Source: Mycobacterium sp. Root265 (GTDB lineage: Bacteria > Actinomycetota > Actinomycetes > Mycobacteriales > Mycobacteriaceae). Taken from it: 61,915 nt of DNA. A program made the position numbers and the translations under genes. Below the pieces are notes generated by a model that made no database searches, was not told the origin of the DNA, and saw only the letters and a program-made list of their open reading frames with translations. Location of the stretch: NCBI RefSeq assembly GCF_001428895.1, contig NZ_LMJA01000001.1, positions 516,599-578,513 of the forward strand, written 5' to 3'. This document shows, piece after piece, positions 35,470 to 37,650 of the stretch. How positions within the stretch are numbered: the first letter of the stretch is position 1; the number at the start of each line of letters is the position of its first letter.

Positions 35470-35513
35470 TTGCGCACATCTGACCGATCGGTCTATATTC
35501 TGACCATGCGGTC
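35470..35513 (+). promoter_or_regulatory. Promoter and tandem operators of the tetR-GT-atpE operon
   Basis: TTGCGC (35470-35475) and TATATT (35494-35499) form a -35/-10 pair 18 bases apart, and only 6 bases separate the -10 from ATG 35506, so the transcript is probably leaderless. GACCGATCGGTC (35482-35493) is a perfect 12-base palindrome in the spacer. GACC-atgc-GGTC (35502-35513) is a second copy overlapping the start codon, 20 bases away centre to centre. Both are probable sites for the TetR encoded here. Confidence 0.72.
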
Positions 35514-36129
35514 TAGTGGATCAACCTTCACCGAGAGGGCGCGCCGGGAGCAGATCGTGGCCGGTGCGATCGAGACGATTGCGACCAAGGGATACACCCA
35601 GGCCTCGCTGGCCAAGATCGCCGAACATGTCGGTATCGCGAAGAGCGTTGTGCTGTACCACTTCACATCGAAGACCGACATCATCGAGGCGGTGGTTGCA
35701 GCGGTATTCGGGCAGGCAGCCGCAATCATCGCGCCCGCCGTTGCCGCCGAAAGCACCGCCCGAGACAAGCTGGCCGCCTACATCCGCGCCAACGTACAGT
35801 TCATCCAGGACAGTCGGTTGGCCGCCGTGGCAATGCTGGAGATCGTCACCAGTTTCCGCACCGAGGACGGTCTGAGGCTCGACCAGGCCGCTGCCCGGTC
35901 CGGTCCGCCGTCCGGCGAACTCACGATGCTCGACCCACTCGCGCTCATCACCGACGGGATCAACAGCGGCGAGTTTCGCACGATGTCAGCAGTTTTCACC
36001 AAGAATGCGCTGCGCGCAGCATTGGACGGCGCGGTCTGGGAAGTCGCCCGCGATCCCGCCTACGACGTGATCGGATACGGCGAGCAACTCGTCACCATGT
36101 TCGATCTCGCAACCCGGGCACAGTCATGA
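35506..36129 (+). CDS. TetR-family regulator heading the GT-atpE operon
   Basis: The 207-residue regulator has the helix-turn-helix GYTQASLAKIAEHVGIAKSVVLYHFTSKTDII and a helical C-terminal domain. ATG 35506 follows directly on the -10 element with no leader. The stop overlaps the start of the glycosyltransferase gene (ATGA). Two GACC-N4-GGTC dyads over the promoter and start codon indicate autorepression, so the whole three-gene operon should be induced by a ligand of this protein. Confidence 0.88.
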   Translation: MRSSGSTFTERARREQIVAGAIETIATKGYTQASLAKIAEHVGIAKSVVLYHFTSKTDIIEAVVAAVFGQAAAIIAPAVAAESTARDKLAAYIRANVQFIQDSRLAAVAMLEIVTSFRTEDGLRLDQAAARSGPPSGELTMLDPLALITDGINSGEFRTMSAVFTKNALRAALDGAVWEVARDPAYDVIGYGEQLVTMFDLATRAQS

Positions 36130-37412
36130 CCCGCGTCGTCATCCAGGCGTTCGGGACCCGTGGTGACGTCGCACCATTCACCGGTCTGGGACAAGCACTT
36201 CAGCAGAGACTCGGCGTCGATGTAGCGCTCGCTGCTCAACGCCCATACCGCGACATGATCACCGCGGCCGGTCTGGAATTTCGACTCCTGCCGCGGGACA
36301 CCGAGCGCGCCACCCGTGAATCCGAATACGGCCAGGCCATGGTCGACGGCGCTCGCATGACACCGTCCAAGGCGACGCTGCAATCGCTACGTGAGGATCT
36401 CGCCGGTGTCGGCGAGGCCATGGCAGAGGCCGGGCGTGATGCGGAACTCGTGCTCTTCGGTGGGCCGGTGGGATCGCTGCTCGGCTATCACGTCGCCGAA
36501 GCGCTGGAGATCCCCAGCATGGGCGCCCTGCTTCAACCCGCCAGTCCCACAACCGTCTTCGCACCCCCGCCGCTGACGACACGATCCTTCGGCCGCCTCG
36601 GAAACAAGCTGGTGTGGGCAACCTCGACCGTCGGCGAGAAGGTTTACACCCCGCTGATCAACAACCTTCGGGCCGAATTGGGACTGCCGGCGCGCTCCCG
36701 CCGCGGCTATCAGGCAGAACGAAGCGCCCGGTGGCCCATGCTGTACGGGTTCAGCCCGCACGTCGTGCCCAGACCGCCGGACTGGCGCCGCGGACTCGAC
36801 ATCACCGGATATTGGTGGCCCGCAGTCGACCCCTCGTGGCAGCCTTCGGCGCACCTGGCAGAGTTTCTCGGCGACGGCCGACCCCCGGTGTTCATCGGAT
36901 TCGGCAGCACCGCCACGGCACACGGTGACGAATTGTCCGAGACGATCACCCACGCGCTGAAGGCGGCCCGAGTTCGGGGCGTGATCCAGTCGGGGTGGGC
37001 AGGCCTGCACGGCACCGGCGATGACGTCGTCACCGTCGACGACGTGCCGCACTCCTGGCTGTTCCCCAGGATGGCCGCGATCGTCCACCACGGTGGAGCC
37101 GGCACCAGCGCTGCCGCGCTGCGCGCGGGCAGGCCCTCGATTCCGGTCGCGGGGATCATGGATCAGCCGTTCTGGGCTCATCGTCTGCATGCACTGGGCG
37201 TGGCCACTGCACCGATGCGCCGCGTCGGGCTGAGCGCCGATCGACTCACTGCCGCCATCACCGCGGCGACCGCGGAGCCGATGTACACCCAACGCGCCCA
37301 TCACTATTCACAGTTGATTGCGGACGAGGATGGCGCAACGTGCGCCGTGGACATCATCGCCCGACGCCTGGAGAACCGCTCAACAACACCGGAGGTGTCC
37401 GATGGCCGCTGA
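36126..37412 (+). CDS. GT1-family glycosyltransferase (sterol/macrolide UGT-like)
   Basis: The 428-residue enzyme has the GT-B layout of bacterial UGTs: N-terminal IQAFGTRGDVAPFTGLGQAL (the GTRGD start of sterol-glucosyltransferase/GtfA-like enzymes), a linker at PPVFIGFGSTA, and the C-terminal nucleotide-sugar motif HHGGAGTSAAALRAGRPSIPVAG followed by DQPFWAHRLHALG. Related enzymes glycosylate lipids such as glycopeptidolipids, sterols and macrolides. The acceptor is unknown. It is coupled to the TetR gene (ATGA), and its last 11 bases contain the start of the AtpE-like gene. Confidence 0.88.
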   Translation: MTRVVIQAFGTRGDVAPFTGLGQALQQRLGVDVALAAQRPYRDMITAAGLEFRLLPRDTERATRESEYGQAMVDGARMTPSKATLQSLREDLAGVGEAMAEAGRDAELVLFGGPVGSLLGYHVAEALEIPSMGALLQPASPTTVFAPPPLTTRSFGRLGNKLVWATSTVGEKVYTPLINNLRAELGLPARSRRGYQAERSARWPMLYGFSPHVVPRPPDWRRGLDITGYWWPAVDPSWQPSAHLAEFLGDGRPPVFIGFGSTATAHGDELSETITHALKAARVRGVIQSGWAGLHGTGDDVVTVDDVPHSWLFPRMAAIVHHGGAGTSAAALRAGRPSIPVAGIMDQPFWAHRLHALGVATAPMRRVGLSADRLTAAITAATAEPMYTQRAHHYSQLIADEDGATCAVDIIARRLENRSTTPEVSDGR

Positions 37413-37650
37413 AGAACTCATGGGTAACGCACTACTCGCCGGTGCCATCGTGCTGGCCGGTGGTGCGATCGGCGCCGGCGTCGGTGACGGCATGGCCGGC
37501 GCGCAGCTCATCGCAGGAGTCGCCCGCCAGCCCGAGGCGCTCTCACGGCTCTACACACCGTTCTTCATCACCGTGAGCCTCGTCGAGGCAACCTTCTTCA
37601 TCAACGTCGCCTTCATGGCGCTGTTCGTATTCGCCACGCCCGGCCTCTGA
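37402..37650 (+). CDS. Second ATP synthase F0 subunit c (AtpE paralogue), orphan
   Basis: The 82-residue protein is plainly an F0 subunit c: helix 1 with GGAIGAGVGDGMAG, the polar loop RQPE (residues 42-45) and helix 2 LVEATFFINVAFMALFVF, whose Glu62 is the proton-carrying carboxylate. Asp29 equals M. tuberculosis Asp28. Positions equivalent to M. tuberculosis Gly58, Ala63 and Tyr64 are Ser59, Thr64 and Phe65. No other atp gene is nearby, so it is not part of the main ATP synthase operon. ATG 37402 follows GGAGGTG at 37391-37397 inside the glycosyltransferase gene. It could make an alternative or mixed c-ring. Confidence 0.9.
   Translation: MAAEELMGNALLAGAIVLAGGAIGAGVGDGMAGAQLIAGVARQPEALSRLYTPFFITVSLVEATFFINVAFMALFVFATPGL

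Follow-up and report, generated by a model that had tools for sequence, protein, structure and literature searches.

In actinobacteria, a second copy of the drug target (the RNA polymerase subunit RpoB2, in Nocardia) and the rifamycin-inactivating glycosyltransferase Rgt are both described as routes of resistance to one natural product, and a 19-bp palindromic element was linked to rgt and to the rifampicin induction of helD (PMC10719064). Here we describe a locus of comparable design in Mycobacterium sp. Root265, found in a stretch of 61,915 nucleotides (contig NZ_LMJA01000001.1, positions 516,599 to 578,513 of the forward strand; hereafter the window, meaning the whole stretch), in which genes for a TetR-family regulator, a glycosyltransferase (GT) and a complete second F0 subunit c of the ATP synthase, here called AtpE2, are tightly coupled. 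As in the rpoB2 and Rgt case, a spare essential target is accompanied by a putative drug-modifying GT and by a palindromic element. However, the target is here the F0 c-ring, GT and target copy share one operon headed by TetR, and the GT is not an Rgt, the nearest curated model to it being that of Rgt (NF000354) with 113 bits against a cut-off of 800. Judging from its sequence, it is fairly probable that the TetR-GT-AtpE2 operon serves inducible resistance to a c-ring inhibitor, in which glycosylation would be combined with a less sensitive c subunit.

Other described systems share single traits with this locus. Podospora anserina has two separately regulated c-subunit genes, Atp9-5 and Atp9-7; that system is eukaryotic, its regulation is linked to proliferation, and the abstract of the study mentions neither a GT nor a ligand-type repressor (PMC4956034). 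Photobacterium profundum carries duplicate ATP-synthase genes in a second set (PMC10054830), whereas here subunit c alone is duplicated. M. xenopi, M. flavescens and others are reported to be naturally resistant to bedaquiline by the AtpE change A63M (PMC5817190) and so resemble our case at position 63; in those species, however, the sequenced atpE itself is changed, whereas here position 63 is T, I, V or S (or A) in a separate paralogue and stays A in the canonical AtpE. The glycosyltransferases Ngt-1, Rgt1438 and GimA are of the same GT-B class and may share its chemistry, but the main text of the report on them has no mention of ATP synthase or atpE (PMC13214531). Among the open-licence PMC matches listed, no paper concerned this operon or a second mycobacterial atpE by its title or the start of its abstract. 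To our knowledge, this would be the first known inducible target-replacement system for ATP synthase.

The elements of the locus, in positions of the window, are the following.

35482 to 35513, + strand: double operator, with palindromes GACC-GATC-GGTC at 35482-35493 and GACC-ATGC-GGTC at 35502-35513
35506 to 36129, + strand: TetR-family regulator, 207 residues (TetR_N 43.7 bits, cut-off 24)
36126 to 37412, + strand: GT of the GT1/GT-B type, 428 residues (EryCIII-like_C 55.4 bits, cut-off 31.7; Glyco_transf_28 30.2 bits, cut-off 26.2)
37402 to 37650, + strand: AtpE2, complete second F0 subunit c, 82 residues (ATP-synt_C, NF004532)

All three genes score above the curated Pfam cut-offs of their families, AtpE2 reaching 35.6 bits with ATP-synt_C (PF00137; cut-off 24) and 125 with the subunit c model NF004532 (cut-off 120). 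The preliminary description of the window had claimed a tight coupling of the three genes, and this was borne out: from ATG codons at 35506 (tetR), 36126 (GT) and 37402 (atpE2), the genes run through an ATGA overlap at the tetR-GT junction and an 11-base overlap at the GT-atpE2 junction, and the GGAGG preceding atpE2 falls within the GT gene. It had also pictured AtpE2 as a complete subunit c lying apart from the atp genes, with a normal atpE to be looked for elsewhere, and the genome (6.67 Mb, 100% complete) agrees on both counts. PF00137 has two matches in it, namely AtpE2 and a copy at C2:412102 that is grouped with atpI, atpB, atpF, atpFH, atpA, atpG and atpD in an intact atp operon, and subunit a (atpB) has a single match. 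AtpE2 is in this sense a second copy of an essential target alongside the normal one, which is one of the features of resistance by target replacement.

Operator, regulators and glycosyltransferase

The double operator consists of two perfect GAYC-N4-GRTC palindromes with a 20-bp pitch, placed at -24 and -4 relative to the start of tetR. A TATATT box resembling a -10 element lies between them and the tetR start codon falls within the second; from this layout, TATATT is likely the -10 box and the tetR transcript likely leaderless. Given their place next to tetR, the palindromes are a predicted operator of TetR. At least one palindrome was found in 29 of 32 upstream regions and two in 23, while letter shuffles averaged 0.07 and 0; the scanned upstream stretches of L055, L056 and L158 had none. 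When 150 loci (1.55 Mb), many of them from related species, were scanned, 30 copies of the exact double operator were found against about 0.03 expected (29 distinct ones, as L084 and L046 are one locus). Every one of them precedes either a TetR related to that of the window (27 cases) or an AtpE2 that stands unlinked (3 cases), the latter in Gordonia soli (L195), Tsukamurella 8F (L197) and T. pseudospumae (L201). In the two Tsukamurella genomes the unlinked AtpE2 and the separate TetR-GT pair bear sites of a GATC form (both palindromes perfect at L140, L197 and L201, one at L118), whereas their three-gene copies bear the GACC form; in G. soli the AtpE2 operator is of the GACC form, as against the GATC form at the TetR-GT read there. 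The exact 15-base operator half is unique in the window's genome. An operator-like pair at C22:396665 and 396707 of the same genome, between a TetR gene and a divergent gene that by eye resembles short-chain dehydrogenases, was rejected as a member of this regulon.

A homologous TetR, 38-67% identical to that of the window, adjoins AtpE2 in 22 further loci of the same genus. In two other loci the regulator near AtpE2 is of the MerR type and has a TipAS antibiotic-recognition domain: at L048 (6026-7056) its gene is intact and overlaps AtpE2, and at L059 (3750-6251) the gene, next to AtpE2, has a transposase-like gene inside it.

Ten linked or related GTs score between 98 and 122 bits with the Rgt model, all below its cut-off. 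The nearest solved structures to the window's GT are a sterol 3-beta-glucosyltransferase and then GtfA/B/D, and these relatives would fit a large hydrophobic acceptor. In a tree of 57 rows, the TetR-linked GTs form two clades (100/100 each) that are joined weakly (81/71), stand apart from the sampled Streptomyces, Pseudonocardiaceae and other relatives, and in the second case include two Nocardia GTs without a TetR match. At L035 an AtpE2 like that of the window (95%) is paired with a GT of the other clade, showing that parts of the operon have been exchanged. At L042 (4752-6260) the GT similarity stops at residue 374 and the same open frame continues into AtpE2, as a frameshift, a fusion or a sequencing error would produce.

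Distribution of the unit

Rather than being peculiar to this genome, as might have been the case, the neighbourhood is kept by many relatives. AtpE2 was searched for in 298 genomes of the genus including that of the window, loci being worked up from per-genome match counts. At least two AtpE matches occur in 38 of the 298, and 24 of these carry an intact AtpE2-type gene, in 27 loci whose neighbourhoods were all searched with the window's proteins. A homologous TetR is present at 23 of the 27, a homologous GT at 21, MerR-TipAS at 2 and none of these at 2. TetR and then GT stand directly upstream of AtpE2 in 20 loci; three (L041, L050 and L056) have TetR without an upstream GT, that of L050 lying downstream, and an additional GT follows directly downstream in 7/27. 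The flanking genes vary between species groups, showing that the unit was placed more than once.

The 14 other genomes with multiple matches were searched again. In G240 AtpE2 is decaying and lies next to a fragment of a GT (L185), remnants of AtpE2 occur in G037 and G261, and the short match of G261 recurs in G062, G100, G120, G165 and G230. In G032, G044, G121, G145, G212 and G235 the AtpE matches are split, partial or canonical-like; for these six genomes, reading covered both contigs of G032 (L060, L187) and a single one of G212 (L062). The remnants (L185, L186, L188 and the short matches) reflect gain and loss of the system. As a separate observation, L187 (G032:C354) is a canonical-like atpE that has no further atp match nearby; its genome, fragmented and 93% complete, carries a normal operon as well (L060).

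Beyond the genus, 397 genomes of the order were searched by profile and 20 regions read. The three-gene unit was found in two Tsukamurella-like genomes (L069, L071), each of which has its normal atp operon at another site (L068, L070). In a scan of named genomes with a GT profile, the best 80 of 545 matches were examined: a homologous TetR stands beside the GT in 10 of these 80 loci, AtpE2 as well in 4 (M. peregrinum DSM 43271, M. arosiense, a Mycobacterium metagenome-assembled genome and Tsukamurella sp. 1534, in which it is divergent from TetR-GT), and neither in 70. For the seven of the ten TetR-GT loci that are not in the three-gene form, the whole genomes were searched and AtpE2 was present in six, one of them being Tsukamurella sp. 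1534 with its divergent gene. A separate three-gene copy occurs in Mycobacteroides LB1 (L194), Tsukamurella 8F (L199), T. pseudospumae (where L202 is decayed) and CBMA 271 (L049, on the match of its contig numbers and coordinates with those of G147), besides the unlinked AtpE2 of G. soli, Tsukamurella 8F and T. pseudospumae already mentioned. A whole-genome search of Gordonia hankookensis gave no AtpE beyond the operon copy (L203). Gordonia holds parts of the unit, and the three genes occur linked, singly or unlinked.

A mobile vehicle was considered and rejected, as no AtpE2 match was found in phages or viral contigs and the sole plasmid match is a canonical Tsukamurella atp operon. This match (L063, NZ_LR134452.1:363566-383703, plasmid 10 of Tsukamurella tyrosinosolvens NCTC13231) contains the whole atp operon, next to murA and a gene of the MraY family, and the plasmid is perhaps a chromosome piece labelled as such. 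Two other finds were set apart from the system, namely an extra atpE in a genome of another family (G566, L190), which has no GT or TetR match, and a second, F0-only operon in a Nocardia-like genus. The latter (L064-L067) runs atpI-atpB-atpE-atpF-atpF', the 12 kb read gave no match to an F1 gene, and its c subunit is of the mycobacterial type in genomes that also have another type; it is possibly a whole-F0 version of target replacement. G301, also outside the family, has an isolated atpE paralogue that follows an unrelated TetR at a distance of about 90 bases (L081:5292-6241), possibly an independent parallel.

Residues of AtpE2

In M. tuberculosis numbering, the AtpE2 of the window retains E61, R41-Q42-P43 (RQP) and D28, and deviates at 58 (S), 63 (T), 64 (F) and 68 (V). 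We compared 36 AtpE2 loci (26 distinct sequences over positions 28-79) with 36 AtpE of canonical type (11 distinct), 28 of the latter being from Mycobacterium and 8 from Gordonia or Tsukamurella. Eleven of the canonical set were read within an atp operon and 25 typed by sequence, and for 10 of these 25 the genome has no other AtpE match; L088 and L092, which repeat L057 and L053, did not enter the comparison, nor did the decayed L185 and L202. E61, L59, I66 and RQP are retained in all 36 AtpE2. At least one change at 58, 63, 64 or 68 is present in 36/36 AtpE2 and in 0/36 canonical AtpE, a contrast not fully independent of the sorting, which was partly by overall similarity. Over positions 28-79 the canonical AtpE are invariant at 43, and the invariant positions most often changed in AtpE2 are 68, 63, 64 and 58 (22, 18, 18 and 15 of 26), followed by 54, 35 and 51 (12, 10 and 9 of 26).

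The contact set for bedaquiline was taken from a docking study, which mentions 58 and 68 on account of variants that it had itself included (PMC6541270), and comprises the ten residues 28, 58, 59, 61-66 and 68, nine of them testable. In a label permutation test, changes in AtpE2 were enriched at this set (p = 0.004 to 0.005), a result that depends on 58 and 68 being counted as contacts. The choice of contact residues also drew on the structure of the M. phlei ring. The docking study lists A63M, A63P and A63V as resistance changes, A63 itself being without direct interaction (PMC6541270).

The median ratio of nonsynonymous to synonymous differences per site (pN/pS) of AtpE2 is 0.12 (91 pairs from 14 sequences, with a high pS of 0.52) versus 0.10 for canonical AtpE. 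By this measure AtpE2 is under purifying selection, and its assembly into a ring is itself predicted.

Proposed mechanism, alternatives and bedaquiline data

The double operator lies over the promoter and the start codon of tetR, and TetR bound there would repress the operon. The molecule releasing this repression would be small and hydrophobic, probably a natural product of the polyketide type that binds the outer face of the c-ring beside E61; the GT, judging by its family, would glycosylate this inhibitor, and AtpE2 would be produced and enter the c-ring in place of AtpE, alone or mixed with it. AtpE2 retains the proton-binding carboxylate and the F1-facing loop and differs around the drug site, so that proton flow would persist while less drug is bound. 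Macrolides of the oligomycin and venturicidin type are reported to bind close to the c-subunit carboxylate (PMC8249445, PMC10135114), and the sites of bedaquiline and oligomycin to overlap in yeast (PMC7438494). Some lineages use both outputs, some either one alone, and in some the two stand apart in the genome, each behind an operator of this type. Outputs found together, singly or unlinked under one operator type, a TipAS regulator and an altered spare target are what an inducible resistance regulon against a c-ring inhibitor would be expected to look like.

Several points weigh against this reading. To the partial dependence of the residue contrast on the sorting must be added that the enrichment falls to p = 0.17 once 58 and 68 are left out of the contact set, which lowered our confidence in resistance. 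For the 12 AtpE2 least like that of the window p is 0.08 with these two positions and 0.38 without them, and by subgroup the window's own AtpE2 type alone is significant (p = 0.009, the others giving 0.32 and 0.74). Positions 33 and 34 were rejected as drug changes, since A or S and Q are normal there in the eight canonical AtpE of Gordonia and Tsukamurella; these differences are a matter of ancestry. At two loci, L052 (near a contig end) and L054 (about 0.6 kb from a LysR gene), TetR, MerR-TipAS and GT are all absent. With sterol glucosyltransferases first among the solved structures, a lipid acceptor for the GT is possible. Bedaquiline has the c-ring as its target, but being synthetic, and with strains of M. 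peregrinum and M. chelonae susceptible to it, it is probably not the natural inducer. Its minimal inhibitory concentrations in those two species are low (0.015 ug/ml in M. peregrinum and 0.062 in M. chelonae), in strains other than the sequenced ones (PMC5817190).

The preliminary description had set drug-induced inhibitor modification with a substitute target beside a remodelling of the c-ring in a special growth state. For the latter, AtpE2 would provide a ring of other stability, proton affinity or ratio, and the GT would tailor a membrane glycolipid for the same state. Paralogous c subunits with differing expression and energetics have a precedent in P. anserina (PMC4956034), sterol glucosyltransferases are relatives of the GT, the AtpE2 sequence is under constraint and the enrichment at the contact face is fragile. 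Nevertheless, the partner regulators are of ligand type, one of them with an antibiotic-recognition domain, and the patchy presence of the unit (24/298 genomes), its varied chromosomal contexts and its decay in some genomes fit an accessory trait better than core physiology, leaving growth-state remodelling rather unlikely. The shared operator on unlinked genes, the replacement of TetR by a TipAS regulator and the changes around the drug site favour the proposal of drug resistance, which is partly supported overall.

It is less likely still that the compound has another target, as an ionophore would, with AtpE2 offsetting a secondary loss of proton-motive force and the GT inactivating the compound. 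A glycosyltransferase, Ngt-1, does give resistance to the polyether salinomycin (PMC13214531), but this explanation does not predict that the most changed positions of AtpE2 surround E61. The operon may also protect a producer of the inhibitor itself, the analysis of the flanks having covered gene calling and clustering. That AtpE2 is a membrane decoy which binds the inhibitor and does not work in the enzyme is very improbable, since, although a small membrane protein encoded alongside a likely small-molecule-modifying enzyme could act in this way, a decoy should keep the drug contacts and be free to lose E61 and RQP, the reverse of what the 36 AtpE2 display.

If the operon does confer resistance to a c-ring inhibitor, it would point to natural inhibitors of this kind that mycobacteria meet, and TetR with its double operator would be a ready biosensor for finding them. 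A wider and doubtful extension is that mycobacteria, Tsukamurella and Gordonia share a modular, ligand-sensing regulon against an undiscovered natural antibiotic that acts on the mycobacterial-type c-ring at the bedaquiline face, and that its induced state tolerates diarylquinolines and is missed by standard tests and by sequencing of the canonical atpE.

A further consequence concerns SUSPECT-BDQ, a predictor of bedaquiline resistance whose 'non-resistant' variants were inferred from AtpE of 23 susceptible species (PMC6541270). Of eight such variants considered here, seven (I11L, N33A, A34Q, A45S, G58S, A63T and L68V) co-occur in the AtpE2 of L035, L037, L038, L039, L044 and L194; the eighth, L15T, does not fit an ungapped alignment, T being at 16 in L037-L039 and L044. 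The six variants from N33A to L68V are in none of the 28 mycobacterial canonical AtpE, and I11L is in none of the 36, position 11 being I throughout. G58S, A63T, L68V and N33A are reported as misclassified by the model, with remarks of the authors on closeness to the drug or predicted affinity (PMC6541270). Judging from these sequences, the predictor, through its training set, probably took residues of the AtpE2 paralogue for harmless variation of AtpE. Species-level bedaquiline data cannot be mapped onto 'AtpE variation' unless the two paralogues are distinguished.

Downstream of atpE2 the window has a Crp-type gene on the opposite strand, and between 38445 and 42045 three cutinase-like genes, named by eye and paralogous to each other, with a nitroreductase-like gene between the first two.

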